Of a stretch of 42,894 nt of DNA, positions 939-37,076 are shown piece by piece. The DNA is from Oscillospiraceae bacterium (lineage in GTDB: Bacteria > Bacillota > Clostridia > Oscillospirales > SIG627). The notes beneath the pieces were generated by a model that was not told where the DNA came from, searched no databases, and was given only the letters and a program-made list of their open reading frames with translations. Location: the NCBI GenBank assembly GCA_015063605.1, contig SVTV01000025.1, positions 1-42,894 on the forward strand, written 5' to 3'. Every line of letters begins with the position of its first letter. The first letter of the stretch is position 1. The position numbers and the translations under genes were made by a program.

Positions 939-1253
939 ATCAAAAGCAAAGTGGAGATATGCTTTGCGAACATAACCTTATAAATGCGTTTGAACAGGAA
1001 CAAGTAGGCATGATACGGACCGGACAGAGAGCTGTCGGTTGGTGCGAGACAGAGGAAAGGTCGTGACCGAATACATCCTGCGAGCAGTGCACCGAAATTA
1101 TCAGTAGGCTGCAACGGGAGTTCCCGTAACAGAACGGTAGTGTTGTTTGACACTCGGAAAGGCCGCTGTCGTGAGAAAGCGGTAAATAGAGGTGGTACCA
1201 CGGGTATTTCTCGTCCTCTGTATTCTAAAACGGAATACGGAGGGCGTTTTTTT
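939..1253 (+). promoter_or_regulatory. T-box riboswitch (tRNA-sensing leader)
   Basis: The leader shows the T-box order. Stem I has an AGTA (loop E) side at about 1003-1006 and the conserved distal AG-bulge/loop segment at 1025-1050 (GAGAGCTG, GGTTGGTGCGAG). The specifier side GAATACA sits before TCCTG, which pairs with CAGGA. Then come the T-box sequence AGAGGTGGTACCACGG (1188-1203) and a terminator, CCTCTGTATTC pairing with GAATACGGAGG and followed by seven T (1215-1253). Uncharged tRNA should stabilise the antiterminator and switch on the symporter. Aligned to the usual GAA-N-codon spacing, the specifier reads ACA (Thr), but TAC (Tyr) is one base away and cannot be excluded. The TGGT bulge predicts a tRNA with discriminator base A. 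Confidence 0.9.
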
Positions 1254-11653: not shown

Positions 11654-11705
11654 ATTTATGTATGCAAAAGCTCCCGTCGGGGCTCTTATGCATAGAATAA
11701 CAAAA

Positions 11706-11886
11706 CAGAGATAGAGGCGCGTTTGACAAGAGTAGTACCGCATAGCCGTCGGGCTGTGACGCGGTATAAAAGGGGAAAACGCCGAAGAGACTGCCGCGAT
11801 CATCTGATCGAACGAGAACGGCATTCTCTGGCCCGTGTGTTAAGAGTGTACGGGCTGTCGCCGAAACCGGCGGAGAGCTATCATGA
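11706..11886 (+). promoter_or_regulatory. Lysine riboswitch (L box)
   Basis: The conserved lysine aptamer core is readable in order: AGATAGAGGCGCG, AAGAGTA, AAAGGGG, CGCCGAAG, CTGGCC, GGGCTGTCG, GGAGAGCTATC. The closing helix P1 is GATAG (11710-11714) with CTATC (11878-11882). Downstream lie a terminator hairpin and dapA, so lysine binding should favour premature termination and repress lysine synthesis. Confidence 0.95.
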
Positions 11887-11952
11887 TGTATAGAGGATAT
11901 TCAGCGTCCGGCGCGAGGCGTTTTTACCTTAATCCTATTATATACCATGCGG

Positions 11953-23966: not shown

Positions 23967-25337
23967 ATGGGTTTAATTAAAGCTGCTATATCAAGTATAG
24001 GCTCGGTTTTCGGCGATCAGTGGTTGGATGCCATAAAGTGCCCTGATCTTTCAAATGATATTCTCGTTAAGAGAGTATCCGACTCAAACGGAAGAAGTAT
24101 TATTTCCAAGGGAAGCAGAATAATCGTAAATCCCGGACAGATGGCTCTGATAGTTGATAACGGAGCCGTTCTTGACGCTACCGCAGAGCCCGGTGCGTTT
24201 ACTTATGATTCCTCCTCATCCCCCAGCTTCTTCGGAGGCGATTTCGGTCCCGTATTCAAGGAAATGTGGGAGCGCTTCAAATTCGGAGGCGGCGTTTCCA
24301 AGGAACAGGCTGTATACTTCTTTAATGCAAAAGAAATAATAGACAATAAATTCGGTACCGCTACCCCTATTCCTTATTCCGATTGGGGTCATCCTACATT
24401 CAATCCCAGAACTCAAAAGCTTTACGGCATGGCTGTGAACATAAGAATGTACGGTACATTTACATTCAAAATCGGCAATCCCTTCGAGCTTTTGAAGAAC
24501 ATCGCAGGCACAGGCGACGAATATACAAAGGGCGATCTCGTAGAACAGATGAAGTCCGAGTTCATCGCTTCACTTCAGAGCACCCTCAACCTTCTCGGTA
24601 CAGAGGAGCATAAGGTCGCCGCTCTCGATCTTCCCAGCCGTTCCGAAAGCCTCATTGATATGATGCAGGAAAAGGATTTCGATGAAAAGATCAAGGCGAG
24701 AGGTATTGAGCTTAAGTCTATCTCCATTCAGAGCGTATCCTTTGATGACGATTCCAAGAAAAAGGTCGATCAGTACGAGCTGTCCGATCCTCTTTCTCAG
24801 AATGCGTACCTCGCTCATTCTCAGGGCGAAGCTCTCAAGACCGCTGCGGCTAATCCCAACGGCGGCGGAATGACCATGATGGGCATGGGTATGGGATTCG
24901 GTGCCATGGGTATGAATCCCATGTCTGCAATGCAGCAGAACGGTGCTCAGAATCAGATGGATATGGGCGCTCAGATAGCGGCGGCTGTTAATAATTCCGC
25001 AGCTAAGGCTCCTGCCGAAGGAAGCTGGAAGTGCTCCTGCGGAGCTGAGAATACGGGAAATTTCTGCAGTCAGTGCGGAAGCAAGAAGCCTGAGCAGAAG
25101 AGTGCGGATTCATGGACATGCTCCTGCGGTAAGGAAAATACGGGAAAATTCTGCTCCGAGTGCGGAAGTAAAAAGCCTGAGAGCACCACATGGACATGCT
25201 CCTGCGGTAAGGAAAATACGGGAAATTTCTGCTCCGACTGCGGTAGCAAAAAGCCCGAGAAGCTTGTGTGCGCGGGATGCGGCAAGGAACTTGCTCCCGG
25301 AACAAAATTCTGTCCCGATTGCGGAACAAGATCATAA
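23967..25337 (+). CDS. SPFH-domain protein (YdjI type) with C-terminal zinc ribbons
   Basis: A 456-residue protein. Residues 1 to about 270 are the SPFH/band-7-like domain of the YdjI group, often labelled virion-core-like; the typical start is GLIKAAISSIGSVFGDQW. A Met/Gly/Asn-rich linker (about 290-335) follows. The tail has three tandem copies of a W-x-C-S-C-G ... F-C-S-x-C-G-S-K-K-P-E zinc-ribbon unit and a fourth, different ribbon (CAGCGKELAPGTKFCPDCG). No membrane segment is obvious. In Bacillus the relative works with PspA-type proteins in membrane-stress response, a role known from the family, not from this sequence. AAGGAG ribosome site; first gene of an operon with a CBM9-like protein, HflK, HflC and an acetyltransferase. 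Confidence 0.88.
   Translation: MGLIKAAISSIGSVFGDQWLDAIKCPDLSNDILVKRVSDSNGRSIISKGSRIIVNPGQMALIVDNGAVLDATAEPGAFTYDSSSSPSFFGGDFGPVFKEMWERFKFGGGVSKEQAVYFFNAKEIIDNKFGTATPIPYSDWGHPTFNPRTQKLYGMAVNIRMYGTFTFKIGNPFELLKNIAGTGDEYTKGDLVEQMKSEFIASLQSTLNLLGTEEHKVAALDLPSRSESLIDMMQEKDFDEKIKARGIELKSISIQSVSFDDDSKKKVDQYELSDPLSQNAYLAHSQGEALKTAAANPNGGGMTMMGMGMGFGAMGMNPMSAMQQNGAQNQMDMGAQIAAAVNNSAAKAPAEGSWKCSCGAENTGNFCSQCGSKKPEQKSADSWTCSCGKENTGKFCSECGSKKPESTTWTCSCGKENTGNFCSDCGSKKPEKLVCAGCGKELAPGTKFCPDCGTRS
25026..25262 (+). repeat. Three tandem zinc-ribbon coding repeats
   Basis: Units begin with TGG at 25026, 25113 and 25191 (87 and 78 bases apart). Units two and three are nearly identical at the DNA level, units one and two less so, which indicates recent in-frame duplication inside the SPFH gene. 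Each encodes a four-cysteine ribbon. Confidence 0.85.
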
Positions 25338-29093: not shown

Positions 29094-30146
29094 TTATTTG
29101 TTCAGATATAATTCTCTGTTCTGACGGAGAAGGATATCTCTTTCCATGTTGTACACTCTTTCCATAGCGTCGCAGGTCTTCTTCCATACGAGAGGACAGT
29201 TCTGTGCGCCGTAGTCATTGGACTGGCTTCCGTAATAGCCCCATGCGATGATAGTTCTTGCACCTGCATCGTATGCTGCCTCTGTAGCCGCAATGATCTC
29301 TTCCTCACGTCCGCGGGGAGTGTTGTATGTCTGGATCCAGATGTTGTGATCCTTGCCGCATTTTTCACTTACCGCAAGGTTAGCCTTTGTTCCGTCGTAT
29401 ACGAACTTATAGGGATTAACTCCGGCATGACCGAGCCAATAGGGGTCGGAACCGATGTTCTGAAGTGTGGGAATGCTGCAGAGACGTTCGATGTTTTCAA
29501 GGCTGATGCCGTGATGTGCGCCGAGCATTACGCAGATAGTATTTGTAATACCTTTGGAGGCTGCATAAGCTGTAACCTCGCTGAAGTAATCGATGATGGA
29601 ATCTACGCGGAAAGCGGCAGCATCATCATCCATTGTTTCGGGCATGGGTCTTCCGTACTTTTCTTCGAAAAGCTTCTTGCATCTGGGGCATGTGCAGGAG
29701 TAGTATACCTTTCCGTCAACATTCTTCTGAGGAAGATGAGGCTCATCCCAGAAAATAGTCTTACATCCGGTGAATACAACAGCGTCGATCCACTCTTTTG
29801 TGAATTTTCTGAAGTCGGGGCTGTTGAGACATGCTCTTACGGGGTCCATATCGCCGTTGGAATAATACTGATGGCTGTCGGGATAGTATGCGAGGAAGTG
29901 GGACTTATCGCCGGGAGGACCTCCGATTCCCCAGTTATCCATCCAGGTCTCAAGACCTTCGGCTTCGGACATTGCAACGAGATCTTTCATTACTCTGAGA
30001 TGTCTGTCCCAGTCTGTATGGGAAAGCATGTGAACCACAAGGTTCATGTTGTGATTAGCGATGTCACGAAAGTCCTGCTGTGCGTGGAAGGGCATTCTGT
30101 TGCCGTGATATGCAACGCCCAGCTTTAATGGTTTTTTGTTTTCCAT
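29094..30146 (-). CDS. Glycoside-hydrolase-like TIM-barrel protein
   Basis: A 350-residue cytoplasmic protein with the look of a (beta/alpha)8 glycoside hydrolase: FWDEPH (132-137) is a likely catalytic acid strand end, followed by the cysteine pair C151-T-C153-P-R-C156, of the kind found after the fourth strand in several barrel hydrolases. Other barrel strands are KLGVAYHGNRMPFHA, NIWIQTYNTP and TIIAWGYYG. I cannot place it in a numbered GH family, and no signal peptide is present, so it may act on imported oligosaccharides. AAAGGA ribosome site. Upstream lie three tandem 91-bp palindromic repeats, which occupy its whole promoter region. Confidence 0.7.
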   Translation of the reverse strand: MENKKPLKLGVAYHGNRMPFHAQQDFRDIANHNMNLVVHMLSHTDWDRHLRVMKDLVAMSEAEGLETWMDNWGIGGPPGDKSHFLAYYPDSHQYYSNGDMDPVRACLNSPDFRKFTKEWIDAVVFTGCKTIFWDEPHLPQKNVDGKVYYSCTCPRCKKLFEEKYGRPMPETMDDDAAAFRVDSIIDYFSEVTAYAASKGITNTICVMLGAHHGISLENIERLCSIPTLQNIGSDPYWLGHAGVNPYKFVYDGTKANLAVSEKCGKDHNIWIQTYNTPRGREEEIIAATEAAYDAGARTIIAWGYYGSQSNDYGAQNCPLVWKKTCDAMERVYNMERDILLRQNRELYLNK

Positions 30147-30168
30147 GGTTGGTTTCCTTTCAAGTTTT

Positions 30169-30460
30169 TATATTATAACTGCAGTAGGAAAATTGTGCGC
30201 ACGGGCGCACAATTTTGTTAAGCGCATGTTTTTGTTAGCACCGCAGTTATTTGTGCTACTATATTACAACTGCAGTAGGAAAATTGTGCGCACGGGCGCA
30301 CAATTTTGTTAAGCGCATGTTTTTGTTCGCACCGCAGTTATTTGTGCTACTATATCACAACTGCAGTAGGAAAATTGTGCGCACGGGTACACAATTTTGT
30401 TAAGCGCATGTTTTTGTTCGCACCGCAGTTATTTGCGCTTATTATATCATAACTGCATCA
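30169..30460. repeat. Three tandem 91-bp palindrome-bearing repeats
   Basis: Units start at AACTGCAG 30177, 30268 and 30359 (periods 91 and 91), with a fourth partial AACTGCA at 30451 (92). Each unit has a 12-bp stem AAAATTGTGCGC / GCGCACAATTTT with loop ACGG (the third is altered to GGGTACAC, breaking part of the stem), then GCGCATGTTTTTG and CCGCAGTTAT, which mirrors ATAACTGC at the unit start. Differences between units are only a few bases. The array fills the space between the LCP gene and the GH-like gene. At each unit junction the minus strand carries a TATA-like word (TATAAT, ATATAG, ATATAA). Confidence 0.93.
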
Positions 30461-30511: not shown

Positions 30512-31441
30512 TTATCTGTAGGGTGTGTAAAGCTCAAGAGCTTTTTCAACATTCGGTGTAAAATAAGTGACATCGTTTTCAGTAAAGGATGAACCCGGAT
30601 ATGCAATATCTTTTACCGTGTATTCCGAAAGGGAAAAGATTATATCGGAGTTTGCTATAAGAGTTTGCGAATTGAACGACGTATTTATGTTATTGTACAG
30701 AACCGAGATGATCTCGGGAAGCTTTGTGGCATTTTCGGGCTTAAAAAATGCTTGGAAAAATGCCGCAATGAATTTCCGCTGAACGGCTGTTCTCGAGGTG
30801 TCTCCCGACGCATACCCCTTGAATCGGAGAAGATCAAGTGCTTCTTTACCGTAGAGAGTCTGTTGACCGCGCTTGAGATCGATCTTGAGATCCTGCAGCG
30901 GGTCACTGTAATACATATCCTGCTGAACGTAATATGATATGCCGCCGATTGCATCGATTATTTCAATAAATCCCTTTGAGTTTACCGAAATATAATAATC
31001 CACGTTTATTCCCGTCATGGCTCTCACCTTTCCCGCAAGAAAAGCTTCGTCGTGTGTGGAAAGAGCCGTACACAATCTTTTGTACTCGCCGTCAAAGAAA
31101 ACTCTTGAATCGGCGGGAATTGATGTCATCATTATGGTTTTGGATAGCTTGTCGATCTTCACAAGAAGCATCATATCCGCATTTCCGAATGTGTCATCCT
31201 TTCCAATGAGAAGAAATGAGAGAGAATCCTTCTTCTCAACAGAACCGCCTTCCGAGGTTTCCGGGGGAACGGATGTATCGGGAGCGGTAGAAGGTACTTC
31301 TCCGGTTTCGATAGGCTTTGCCGCACCGAACATTTCATCCATGAAGCCCTCAACGTAATTTACGCAAAAGAACGCCGCGGCAATAAAAACGGTCAGCGAA
31401 AGTATAAATACCAATAAAAAGTTTCGTATAGAATATTTCAT
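30512..31441 (-). CDS. LytR-CpsA-Psr (LCP) family protein
   Basis: A 309-residue membrane-anchored protein: one N-terminal TM (about 7-28), a Pro/Thr-rich spacer (43-65) and the LCP domain starting SFLLIGKD. Landmarks are the arginine in IPADSRVFF, the GGISYYV strand and the conserved DTSRTAVQRKF segment. LCP enzymes attach secondary wall polymers (teichoic acids, capsule) from undecaprenyl carriers to peptidoglycan outside the cell, per family knowledge. The start at 31441 has AAGGGA seven bases upstream, and a consensus promoter lies 86 bases further out. Single-gene unit; no wall-polymer synthesis genes nearby. Confidence 0.9.
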   Translation of the reverse strand: MKYSIRNFLLVFILSLTVFIAAAFFCVNYVEGFMDEMFGAAKPIETGEVPSTAPDTSVPPETSEGGSVEKKDSLSFLLIGKDDTFGNADMMLLVKIDKLSKTIMMTSIPADSRVFFDGEYKRLCTALSTHDEAFLAGKVRAMTGINVDYYISVNSKGFIEIIDAIGGISYYVQQDMYYSDPLQDLKIDLKRGQQTLYGKEALDLLRFKGYASGDTSRTAVQRKFIAAFFQAFFKPENATKLPEIISVLYNNINTSFNSQTLIANSDIIFSLSEYTVKDIAYPGSSFTENDVTYFTPNVEKALELYTPYR

Positions 31442-33417: not shown

Positions 33418-33481
33418 CGGTTTTTCCGAAAAAACGGAATTGAAAAAGACTGTTGAGAAATTCGAAAGGAATAACAGCGAT

Positions 33482-35269
33482 ATGGAAAACTTGAAGAATG
33501 CAAGATATATTGAATCACCAAGCAGAAATTTCTGTGTATTGAACAGCTCCGTAATGAATGACCCCAAGGACGGAAGGGATAAGCTTATGTTTACAAGCTT
33601 TGTTGCGGGCGGAACGGGCATCTTTGCAATAGTGGATCCCGTAACCAACGAGGGCGAATCATACGACCTTCCCTGCGATAACGGTGCATGGGCTGTTTGC
33701 CGTGTTGATGAAAGACGAGTCGCCATCGGAACCTGCGGTGCGAGAGGCGCCATCCATACCTTCGACCTTATAGACAGAAAATTCATAAAGACGACCTTCG
33801 CCAAGGACAATCAGTATGTCTGGAATCTTGTGAAGGCATCTGACGGGAATCTCTACGGCGGTACATATCCCGGTAATGTGATAGTTAAATATTCTCCCGA
33901 TACGATGGAAGCGGAAATAGTGACACGCTGCGACGACGATCCCGAAAACCTTTATTCGAGAACCGTTTATCCCGATTACGAGGGAAGCGGAAATATTAAG
34001 GTCGCTTGCAGCCAGAAAACTCCCAATATCTGCATATACAACATATACGATAAGCGGGTTGTGAAGAATATTCCCGGAAGGTTGCTTTCTGCCGGGGCAG
34101 TGCATATTAACGAAAAATTCTTTGCCGTTACAACGGGTGACGGATATTCCGAATATACAAAGGACGGTATCACATATTTCGATTCCGTTACCTGCGAGCC
34201 CATATCTTCCGAGGATCTTCCCGAAATCCCCGTACAGAAGGATAATTATGCCATGTCAAACGGCGGAAGAGCGGTAGTATACAAGCAGGGCTACAAATAT
34301 ACCGATTCCGAGGGAAAGACAGTTCTCAGAAGATTTCCCGTTATACCTCCCGCAACGGCAATGCATACGCTCACATGTGACGCAAACGGTAAGCTCTGGG
34401 GCTCCTCCGGCTTCGGTCAGACCATATGCTCTCTCGATCCCGATACGGGAGAATTCATGAATACCAATGTCGTTACAAATAACGGCGGCGAGGTCTACGG
34501 TATAGTTCCCTATGAAGACAGAATATATCTTACTGCATATGCGGGTGGTATGCATATCGTATACTATCCCGACAAGGAATGGAATCAAGAGGATAATATA
34601 AATCCCAATACCTTCAGACTTCTTTCCGGCGACGGATACATCCGTCCCGAAACACGCTCGTATATAGGACCGGGTGGTTACATCTATACGGGATTCCTTG
34701 CAAACTACGGTGTATACGGCGGCGCTATGACAAGAACAGATCCCAAAACGAACGAGGTCTTGCTGTGGAAGAATACGGAAAACGACTGCGGTATAACAAG
34801 TCTCTTTACCGACAGTAACTATATTTATGCCGTTACCACCACAAGAGGAAACGGCTTGCCTCCCAGAAAGGGAGTTCCCACATACGTTATCAAACTTGAC
34901 TGCAATTTCAATGTGATCAAAACCGAATCTTTTGATAATTTCACTCTTCTCGGCAAGGATTTCATAAACGGCAAGGTTTACCTTGGTATATTTGCGAAGG
35001 ATAAGTCATATTTCGTTACGGGCGATGACGGAATGGAAAGCTATCAGGTCAAGGAGATAGAGGATCTGAGACTTAATAACCTTACACATCTTTGCGGAAC
35101 GGATAAGCTTATATTCCACAGCGGAAACCGCATATATACAATGGACTTCGACGGAGAAAATATCACTCCCGTATGCGAAGCGGATGAGAGAATAACTCAC
35201 TTTACCGTTTCCTCAAAGGGACGTGTGTTCTTTGCCTGCCAATGCAAGGTATTTGAAGCTATGATATAA
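33482..35269 (+). CDS. Propeller-like protein, first of two tandem paralogues
   Basis: A 595-residue soluble protein with repeated beta-rich blocks. Sequence similar throughout to the next gene: opening SPSRNFCVLN, KLMFTSFVAGGTGIFAIVDP, DNGAWAVCRVDERRVAIGTC, DGNLYGGTYPGN, WGSSGFGQTICSLDPDTGEF and GNRIYTMDFDGENI near the end. The repeated G-x-x-x-G-T / D-x-x-x-L-Y patterns suggest a seven- or eight-bladed beta propeller of SMP-30/PQQ-type. No signal peptide, so cytoplasmic or non-classically exported. Start ATG 33482 has AAAGGA 11 bases upstream and gives exactly the same length as its paralogue. Function unknown. It lies 64 bases after the M55 gene. Confidence 0.8.
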   Translation: MENLKNARYIESPSRNFCVLNSSVMNDPKDGRDKLMFTSFVAGGTGIFAIVDPVTNEGESYDLPCDNGAWAVCRVDERRVAIGTCGARGAIHTFDLIDRKFIKTTFAKDNQYVWNLVKASDGNLYGGTYPGNVIVKYSPDTMEAEIVTRCDDDPENLYSRTVYPDYEGSGNIKVACSQKTPNICIYNIYDKRVVKNIPGRLLSAGAVHINEKFFAVTTGDGYSEYTKDGITYFDSVTCEPISSEDLPEIPVQKDNYAMSNGGRAVVYKQGYKYTDSEGKTVLRRFPVIPPATAMHTLTCDANGKLWGSSGFGQTICSLDPDTGEFMNTNVVTNNGGEVYGIVPYEDRIYLTAYAGGMHIVYYPDKEWNQEDNINPNTFRLLSGDGYIRPETRSYIGPGGYIYTGFLANYGVYGGAMTRTDPKTNEVLLWKNTENDCGITSLFTDSNYIYAVTTTRGNGLPPRKGVPTYVIKLDCNFNVIKTESFDNFTLLGKDFINGKVYLGIFAKDKSYFVTGDDGMESYQVKEIEDLRLNNLTHLCGTDKLIFHSGNRIYTMDFDGENITPVCEADERITHFTVSSKGRVFFACQCKVFEAMI

Positions 35270-35288: not shown

Positions 35289-37076
35289 ATGAAAGAAATA
35301 AGATATATAGCATCACCCAGCAGAAATTTCTGCATACTCAATTACAATGTGATGCAAGACCCCAAGGATAACATTGAAAAGCTTATGTTCACAAGCTTCG
35401 TTTCGGGCGGAACGGGTATGTTTGCCATCGTAGATCCCATTGCCAACGTTGGCGAATCCTATGAATTCCCCTGCGACAACGGTGCATGGGCAGTTTGCCG
35501 TGTGGACGAAAGAAGAGTTGCCATAGGTACTTGTGCCGCAGTGGGTGTTATACACACCTTCGATCTTATAGACAGAAAATTTATCAAGACCTCCAAGGTA
35601 GAGGGTAACACATATGTGTGGAATCTTGCCAAGGCATCCGACGGAAATCTTTACGGCGGTACATACGGCGGAAACTCTCTCGTAAAGTATCATGCCGATA
35701 CTATGGAGGCAGAGGTCGTTGCAAGATGCGACGATAATCCGAAGAATATGTACAGCAGGACGGTATATCCCGACGTTAACGGAAGCGGAAAGATAATCGT
35801 CACCTCGGGTATGGAAGAAAATCACCTGTTGGTATACGATATCTATGAGCAAAAGCCCGTAAAGAGTATTCCCGGAACAATGCTTTCCTATAATTGTGCA
35901 TATTTTGCGGTGAACGCTTCCGCTTTGGGCGACGGAAAGACTCCCGAGCATACAAAGGAAGCAAAGGAGATACGTTATTTCAATTCCGAAACATGCGAGG
36001 AGATATCGAAGGATGAGCTTCCCGAGGCTGTGCCCGTACGTGATAAGCTTCTTATGTCCGACGGAACACGTGTTTCGGGCTACAAGCAGGGATATAAGGT
36101 CACTTTCCCGGACGGAAGCTTTGAAATAAAGAACTATCCCGTTCTTGCACCCGCTACGGGCATACATACCATGGTATGTGATGACAATGAAAAGATATGG
36201 GCATCCTCGGGCTTCGGTCAGACCGTGGCACACCTCGATCCCGACACGGGAGAATTCAAAAATACAAACAGCGTCACGAATAACGGCGGAGAGGTCTACG
36301 GTATCGTTCCTTACGAGGACAGAGTGTATTTTACCGCATACAATGGCGGTATCCATATAGTCTATTATCCCGACAGAGAATGGAATCAGGAGGAGAATGT
36401 TAATCCCAATACATTCAGACTTATAAACAAGGAAGGTTATATAAGACCCAATTCGCGCTCCCATATAGGACCGGGCGGATACATCTATACGGGCTTTACT
36501 GCCGATTACGGTGTATACGGCGGTGCGGTTTCGAGGATAGACCCGAAGACCAATGAAGTCAAGCTTTGGGAAAACAAGGTTAATGACTGCGGTATAACCG
36601 CTTTGGGCTTCGATAAGGAACATATCTATGCCGTGACAACAAGCGGAGGAAACGGCTTGCCCGAAAGACGTGATATCCCCACTTATATATTCAAGTTGAA
36701 TTCCGAGCTTGAGCTTATAGAGTATAAGGATATCGGTAAGACATATTTCTACGGTACTGTATACAGCGAAGGAAAGATATATATCACCGGAGTTACCGAC
36801 GGTAAGTATTTCTTTGCCATCGGCGAGGAGGGAATGAAGGAATACACCGTCAAGTATTTCGATAATATTACGATCGCATTGAACCTTTCCTTACTTCACG
36901 GAACGGATAAGCTTATCTTTACATGGGGCAATAAGGTGTGCACCATGGACAAGGACGGAGAGAACATAGAGATCATAGCCGAAGCCGAAAAGCACATAAA
37001 TCATATGTGTGTTACAAAGAGCGGAAGAGTATTCATCGGATGCGTTGAAAAGGTATATGAGGTCTGCATGAAATAA
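35289..37076 (+). CDS. Propeller-like protein, second tandem paralogue
   Basis: A 595-residue paralogue of the preceding gene, clearly a tandem duplicate: blocks such as SPSRNFCILN, DNGAWAVCRVDERRVAIGTC, NTNSVTNNGGEVYGIVPYEDRVYFTAYNGGIH and RPNSRSHIGPGGYIYTGF match position by position, while the 200-260 region has diverged. GGGAG ribosome site; only 19 bases separate it from the first copy. No signal peptide and no catalytic motif that I recognise. It ends with a terminator at 37094-37128. Retention of equal length with local divergence suggests both copies are functional, perhaps with different ligands. Confidence 0.8.
   Translation: MKEIRYIASPSRNFCILNYNVMQDPKDNIEKLMFTSFVSGGTGMFAIVDPIANVGESYEFPCDNGAWAVCRVDERRVAIGTCAAVGVIHTFDLIDRKFIKTSKVEGNTYVWNLAKASDGNLYGGTYGGNSLVKYHADTMEAEVVARCDDNPKNMYSRTVYPDVNGSGKIIVTSGMEENHLLVYDIYEQKPVKSIPGTMLSYNCAYFAVNASALGDGKTPEHTKEAKEIRYFNSETCEEISKDELPEAVPVRDKLLMSDGTRVSGYKQGYKVTFPDGSFEIKNYPVLAPATGIHTMVCDDNEKIWASSGFGQTVAHLDPDTGEFKNTNSVTNNGGEVYGIVPYEDRVYFTAYNGGIHIVYYPDREWNQEENVNPNTFRLINKEGYIRPNSRSHIGPGGYIYTGFTADYGVYGGAVSRIDPKTNEVKLWENKVNDCGITALGFDKEHIYAVTTSGGNGLPERRDIPTYIFKLNSELELIEYKDIGKTYFYGTVYSEGKIYITGVTDGKYFFAIGEEGMKEYTVKYFDNITIALNLSLLHGTDKLIFTWGNKVCTMDKDGENIEIIAEAEKHINHMCVTKSGRVFIGCVEKVYEVCMK

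Follow-up and report, generated by a model that had tools for sequence, protein, structure and literature searches.

The window, by which we mean the whole 42,894-nucleotide stretch analysed, carries a tandem array of short repeats between two genes of the minus strand. The array was first described as filling a promoter region between an LCP gene and a GH-like gene; it does lie in a promoter or leader region, downstream of the LCP gene. The name GH-like given to the gene that follows the array is unproven, since this gene has no Pfam match; its homologues occur in many rumen and gut Clostridia and in Paenibacillus. The features of the locus, all on the minus strand, are the following.

29094–30146, minus strand: downstream gene, 350 amino acids, ATG at 30146, no Pfam family
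30168–30177, minus strand: 3′ terminal −10-like word TATAATATAA, 21 bp ahead of the start codon
30169–30441, minus strand: tandem array of three 91-bp units of a dispersed repeat, the minus strand being the functional reading direction
30189–30216, minus strand: hairpin 2 of the gene-proximal unit, perfect 12-bp stem
30220–30258, minus strand: hairpin 1 region of the gene-proximal unit, degenerate 5′ arm
30280–30307, minus strand: hairpin 2 of the middle unit, perfect 12-bp stem
30311–30349, minus strand: hairpin 1 region of the middle unit, degenerate 5′ arm AGCACA
30371–30398, minus strand: hairpin 2 of the promoter-proximal unit, AAAATTGTGTACCCGTGCGCACAATTTT, two mismatches
30402–30440, minus strand: hairpin 1 of the promoter-proximal unit, AAGCGCA...TGCGCTT, 7-bp stem
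30441–30449, minus strand: extended −10 box TGATATAAT at the 5′ end of the array in reading direction
30442–30457, minus strand: 16-bp remnant of the 3′ end of a fourth unit, 5′ of the first complete unit; it reaches the end of the array in TRF, and ATGCAGTTATGATATAAT on the minus strand matches the 3′ end of the unit
30512–31441, minus strand: upstream gene, LytR-CpsA-Psr (LCP) family, PF03816, 309 amino acids

The units follow one another head-to-tail at 30169–30259, 30260–30350 and 30351–30441, units 2 and 3 being 98 and 91% identical to unit 1. TRF run on the window returned a period of 91 with 3.2 copies at 30169–30457 and a score of 506, so the array is not a product of chance. Unit alignment and TRF thus agree with the first-pass annotation on three near-identical 91-bp units and on their positions, and the distance of 22 bp that it gave between the array and the ATG is exact. 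Units 1 and 2 form the 12-bp stem AAAATTGTGCGC/GCGCACAATTTT perfectly, and unit 3 forms it with two mismatches. For the ends ATAACTGC/GCAGTTAT, described as mirrored in each unit, the symmetry comes mostly from a CTGCAG word and is not kept in other copies. The TATA-like words reported at every junction of the minus strand are real and match −10 boxes: after the first box, the word is degenerate (TATAGT) in the two downstream units and is TATAAT again at the last junction. No convincing −35 hexamer precedes the array, the best one at a spacing of 17 being TATTTT. If transcription started from the first box, the leader of the downstream gene would be about 290 nt long with up to six hairpins.

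Elsewhere in the window, a T-box leader (980–1221, plus strand) and a lysine riboswitch (11704–11888, plus strand) reach the Rfam gathering score. The coding sequence of a 456-residue protein contains a 78-bp tandem repeat at 25111–25260, by which a zinc-ribbon-like motif, CxCG...CxxCG, is doubled at the protein's end. Two adjacent genes of about 600 codons (33440–35269 and 35289–37076) are clearly similar and look like a tandem duplication.

Read on the minus strand, the unit consists of TGATATAAT, hairpin 1 (AAGCGCA...TGCGCTT), hairpin 2 (AAAATTGTGCG...CGCACAATTTT) and a right end finishing in TTATGATATAAT, the terminal stretch after hairpin 2 being CCAACTGCTRTTATGATATAAT. Across the family the unit is non-coding and measures about 80–92 bp. 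The word TATRATATAAT sits at both unit ends, which is why most arrays of n units contain about n+1 copies of it. The segment GCGAACAAA is almost invariant among units, and no terminal inverted repeat is conserved.

Compensatory changes are seen in both hairpins. When pairs were counted against the named structure in 26 distinct units, 87% of the cells were paired and seven pairs had changed on both sides. In six sequences the hairpin 1 stem has G-C in place of A-U where it meets the loop. Hairpin 2 is rebuilt with other arms in the divergent subfamilies, namely AAAATTGAGTGCA/TGCACTCAATTTT in L021, GAAATAATGCC/GGCATTATTTC in L028/L031 and GAAATATTGTC/GACAATATTTC in L030; what is kept is therefore single-strand pairing and no single fixed sequence. 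RNAalifold alone, applied to the full alignment, called only hairpin 1 because the subfamilies differ in hairpin 2, whereas counting against the named structure backs both. Two other readings of the unit were discarded. An attC-like reading of GTTAAGC fails because a partner core site is missing and subfamilies differ in the motif, and hairpin 2 gave only weak matches to a terminator, on both strands.

The repeat is not confined to this locus. With the array as query, matches were found on many contigs of the host genome (2.67 Mb in 61 contigs, 96% complete), and a single unit as query gave 43 matches. An iterated profile search over the retrieved loci brought the total to at least 47 units in 26 arrays; this is a lower bound, as contigs break at the repeats and the copies were collected by search, so that the set may be incomplete. 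Several contigs start or end near such repeats, and C10 and C40 both end within one array and may represent one locus. The flanks of the arrays are unrelated and the downstream genes share no function. They encode a PALP protein of the cysteine-synthase type, a formate/nitrite transporter, MFS, histidine phosphatase, AAA/DUF4143 and NUDIX proteins, as well as GH38, rhamnosidase, SSF symporter, class V aminotransferase and response regulator families. The first-pass annotation had itself named dispersed arrays beside unrelated genes as the mark of a mobile repeat, and this is essentially what the genome contains, the copies being similar rather than identical. Many non-coding copies at unrelated sites of one genome are what defines a dispersed non-autonomous repeat of the MITE or REP type. 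Copy number was also suspected to vary, and it does, from one to five units between loci of the same genome. For 22 of 32 units from arrays the nearest relative lies in the same array, and the arrays therefore grow locally.

A second family of tandem repeats was seen in the same genome, with 90–96-bp units forming several nested hairpins (AAAGTTTGCACTTTGCTGTC...GACAGCAATTTTGCATACGCAAAAGCGTGCAAACTTT). Its loci are L201:720–1079 (C48), L202:150–409 (C57), L204:560–880 (C27) and L203:780–850 (C31), and those in L201 and L202 also directly precede gene starts. At L031:1–300 and L028:1–180, the two hairpins of the window family are combined with a unit of the second family into a composite of about 176 bp; both contigs (C10 and C40) end within this composite array. 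A common sequence (...CCCGCCTTTTTGAGGCGGGTTTGTCAGTAGTCTGA) is found at three contig ends, L019:1–126 (C5), L202:1–126 (C57) and the end of L203 (C31), probably because the assembly has collapsed a longer repeat.

Most arrays are associated with sigma-70 promoters. Among the 22 arrays whose first TATAAT could be placed, 14 have TTG, the first three positions of a −35 box, in the unique flank at a spacing of exactly 17, whereas every other spacing from 8 to 27 occurs 0–2 times (binomial P ≈ 5e-18); the window array itself, with its poor −35, is an exception. A perfect TTGACA is present in the unique flank of six arrays, at 17 nt in five and at 18 nt in one. A −35 box with at least four of six matches precedes 64% of the arrays (14/22), against 62% of ordinary TGNTATAAT sites (23 of 37, taken from other examined DNA of the same genome) and 25% of plain TATAAT sites. 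As the share is the same for arrays and ordinary TGNTATAAT sites, no extra selection would be needed. The simplest reading of these counts would be that the copies sit at extended −10 boxes that existed before them.

The repeat could also bring its own −10 box, as the Neisseria element does at the Snyder promoter, selection then keeping those insertions that have a native −35 box 17 nt upstream. The presence of TATRATATAAT at both unit ends and the direct Neisseria precedent (PMC2649163) speak for this explanation, which we nevertheless hold to be rather unlikely, because 14 of 22 arrays at exactly 17 nt would demand very strong selection. Insertion at existing boxes is simpler, given that plain TGNTATAAT sites show the same share of −35 boxes.

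In about 19 of the 26 arrays, the repeat forms part of the leader of a same-strand gene, and most of these arrays begin at the −10 box. With the array removed, the distance from the −10 box to the start codon is about 20–60 nt at most loci, which corresponds to an ordinary leader. There are exceptions. In L013, two units are reversed between the TTGAAT-17-TATAAT promoter of the gene and its start codon; in L016, a unit lies upstream of the intact promoter; no promoter was seen at L019 and L024; and in L028/L031 the repeat seems to lie between two same-strand genes. These exceptions fit a mobile repeat and not a leader RNA.

The bias towards leaders could nonetheless reflect a cis-acting function, and the unit might be a regulatory leader RNA (riboswitch-like, or acting by processing or stabilisation) that coordinates a regulon, tandem copies giving a stronger response. 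The leader position, the structure kept by compensatory changes and the near-invariance of GCGAACAAA are in its favour. This explanation is unlikely, as the downstream genes have no common function and some copies are reversed or outside leaders. Moreover, transcription starts about 7 nt past a −10 box, so the 5′ arm of hairpin 1 of the first unit would be outside the transcript, yet it is well kept. The unit also has no relevant match in Rfam, where weak sub-threshold matches were set aside, and so corresponds to no structured RNA family modelled there. Finally, homologous genes in relatives lack it: no unit was found in 55 loci of homologues of the window gene, which come from rumen and gut Clostridia and reach 74% identity, and some of these loci have an ordinary −35/−10 promoter with a short leader.

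A tandem operator for a DNA-binding regulator of the palindrome AAAATTGTGCGC-N4-GCGCACAATTTT is highly improbable. Long perfect palindromes do stand at fixed spacing in a promoter region, but their arms vary by subfamily while pairing is kept, the opposite of what a sequence-reading regulator needs, and copies are dispersed beside unrelated genes, some away from promoters. Of the roles initially proposed, a series of transcript hairpins is possible, whereas a dedicated array of operators or promoters finds no support in a repeat scattered in this way.

Beyond the host genome, BLAST did not find the repeat in 21 further genomes of the family, nor did a covariance model with strict filters in 393 other genomes of the order. 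One 22-base pattern had no match in a collection of 84,980 species, and no match was found in viral contigs (IMG/VR). Taken together, these searches, each of limited reach and with this genome as the sole representative of its genus in the comparison set, suggest that the repeat is lineage-restricted.

Enzymes that could mobilise the repeat were sought in the genome. Its single Y1_Tnp gene is of the IS200 type and belongs to a single-copy element at L115:3200–3990 (C7) with end hairpins ACCACCCGCTAAGCGGGTGGT and CCACCGGCTAAGCCGGTGG. This resident IS200 was rejected as the source of the repeat, as its end hairpins differ. The repeat accordingly shares its ends with no autonomous Y1 element of the assembly, from which a copy could be missing, and no RAYT flanked by the repeat is present in the genome. 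Because the sole Y1 transposase has other end hairpins, membership in the IS200/IS605 or REP-RAYT groups is not claimed. No autonomous long version carrying the 5′ end of the repeat was found in the genome: exact TATAATAAGCGC sites are known units or chance matches, those at C21 and C60 lacking the remainder of the unit and looking like chance. A search for an IS91-type Y2 transposase gave no match, but neither did its control, which makes this negative uninformative. The unit has neither the conserved inverted ends of a MITE derived from a DDE transposon nor the TATAG[CT]GGATTAA... ends of a Correia element. The TGATATAAT word is near-constant at all sites, and the bases preceding it differ between the two ends. 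The absence of terminal inverted repeats, the two hairpins near the ends, the common word at both ends and the lack of a longer target duplication together resemble single-strand (HUH) elements.

The array is probably one locus of a lineage-restricted, non-autonomous mobile repeat, of a kind with REP, Correia and BOX elements, that targets extended −10 boxes and is amplified locally in tandem. The element would insert next to an extended −10 box TGNTATAAT so that the left hairpin follows the box immediately, and its right end would bring its own copy of the word, TTATGATATAAT; by this arrangement the gene would keep its promoter and the element would join the 5′ leader. Tandem duplication at the locus then multiplies single units, up to five per array. 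That the units move, and that the −10 box is their target rather than a later acquisition, is inferred. What moves may be a hairpin in single-stranded form, processed by an HUH-type or some other enzyme, and the effect of the element on expression is presumably mild. More tentatively, the box TGNTATAAT might itself be the integration site, the left hairpin entering behind it and the right end restoring it. Insertions would in that case be tolerated by expression and each copy would supply a further target, from which the tandem arrays would follow.

If the preferred reading of a mobile repeat targeting −10 boxes is true, the promoter −10 box serves as a safe harbour where the host gene is still transcribed and the target is rebuilt at the far end. 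Hairpin-rich leaders on some twenty unrelated genes of one species would then be a natural experiment on leader structure and expression. Arrays of hairpins ahead of genes should be checked for dispersal before an operator or a riboswitch is named.

Elements derived from IS200/IS605 have end hairpins and no terminal inverted repeat, and they carry the target word at each end without truly duplicating the target. The present repeat is like them in these end features, but the ends of the resident IS200 differ and no link in sequence was seen. REP and REPIN-BIME elements mobilised by RAYT are likewise short, hairpin-bearing, non-autonomous, species-specific and clustered (PMC2817692, PMC3116915); unlike them, the present repeat is found in a genome without a repeat-flanked RAYT, and its units are co-directional within arrays. 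The BOX elements of Streptococcus pneumoniae are structured and modular, grow in copy number locally, occupy 5′ leaders among other sites and have an unclear mobilising enzyme (PMC3049150), all of which recalls the present family. Their build is A-B(n)-C with the middle module alone repeated, whereas here whole units are repeated with a −10-like word at each junction, and the sequences differ. The CREE of Neisseria is also a small, dispersed, non-coding element found in leaders without its own transposase, and in the Snyder promoter the −10 box lies in its terminal bases and the −35 box is native (PMC2649163). CREE are bounded by terminal inverted repeats, usually target TA and do not form tandem arrays, whereas the present repeat lacks conserved inverted ends, has two separate hairpins and occurs in arrays of up to five units. 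The −35/−10 spacing is exact in 14 of 22 present copies; in the gonococcal strain FA1090, by comparison, 123 CREE give 15 potential Snyder promoters. As far as a shallow survey of the literature goes, in which an earlier description may have been overlooked, the family is different from CREE and BOX in its sequence, in its ends and in the consistency with which it is anchored at the −10 box.
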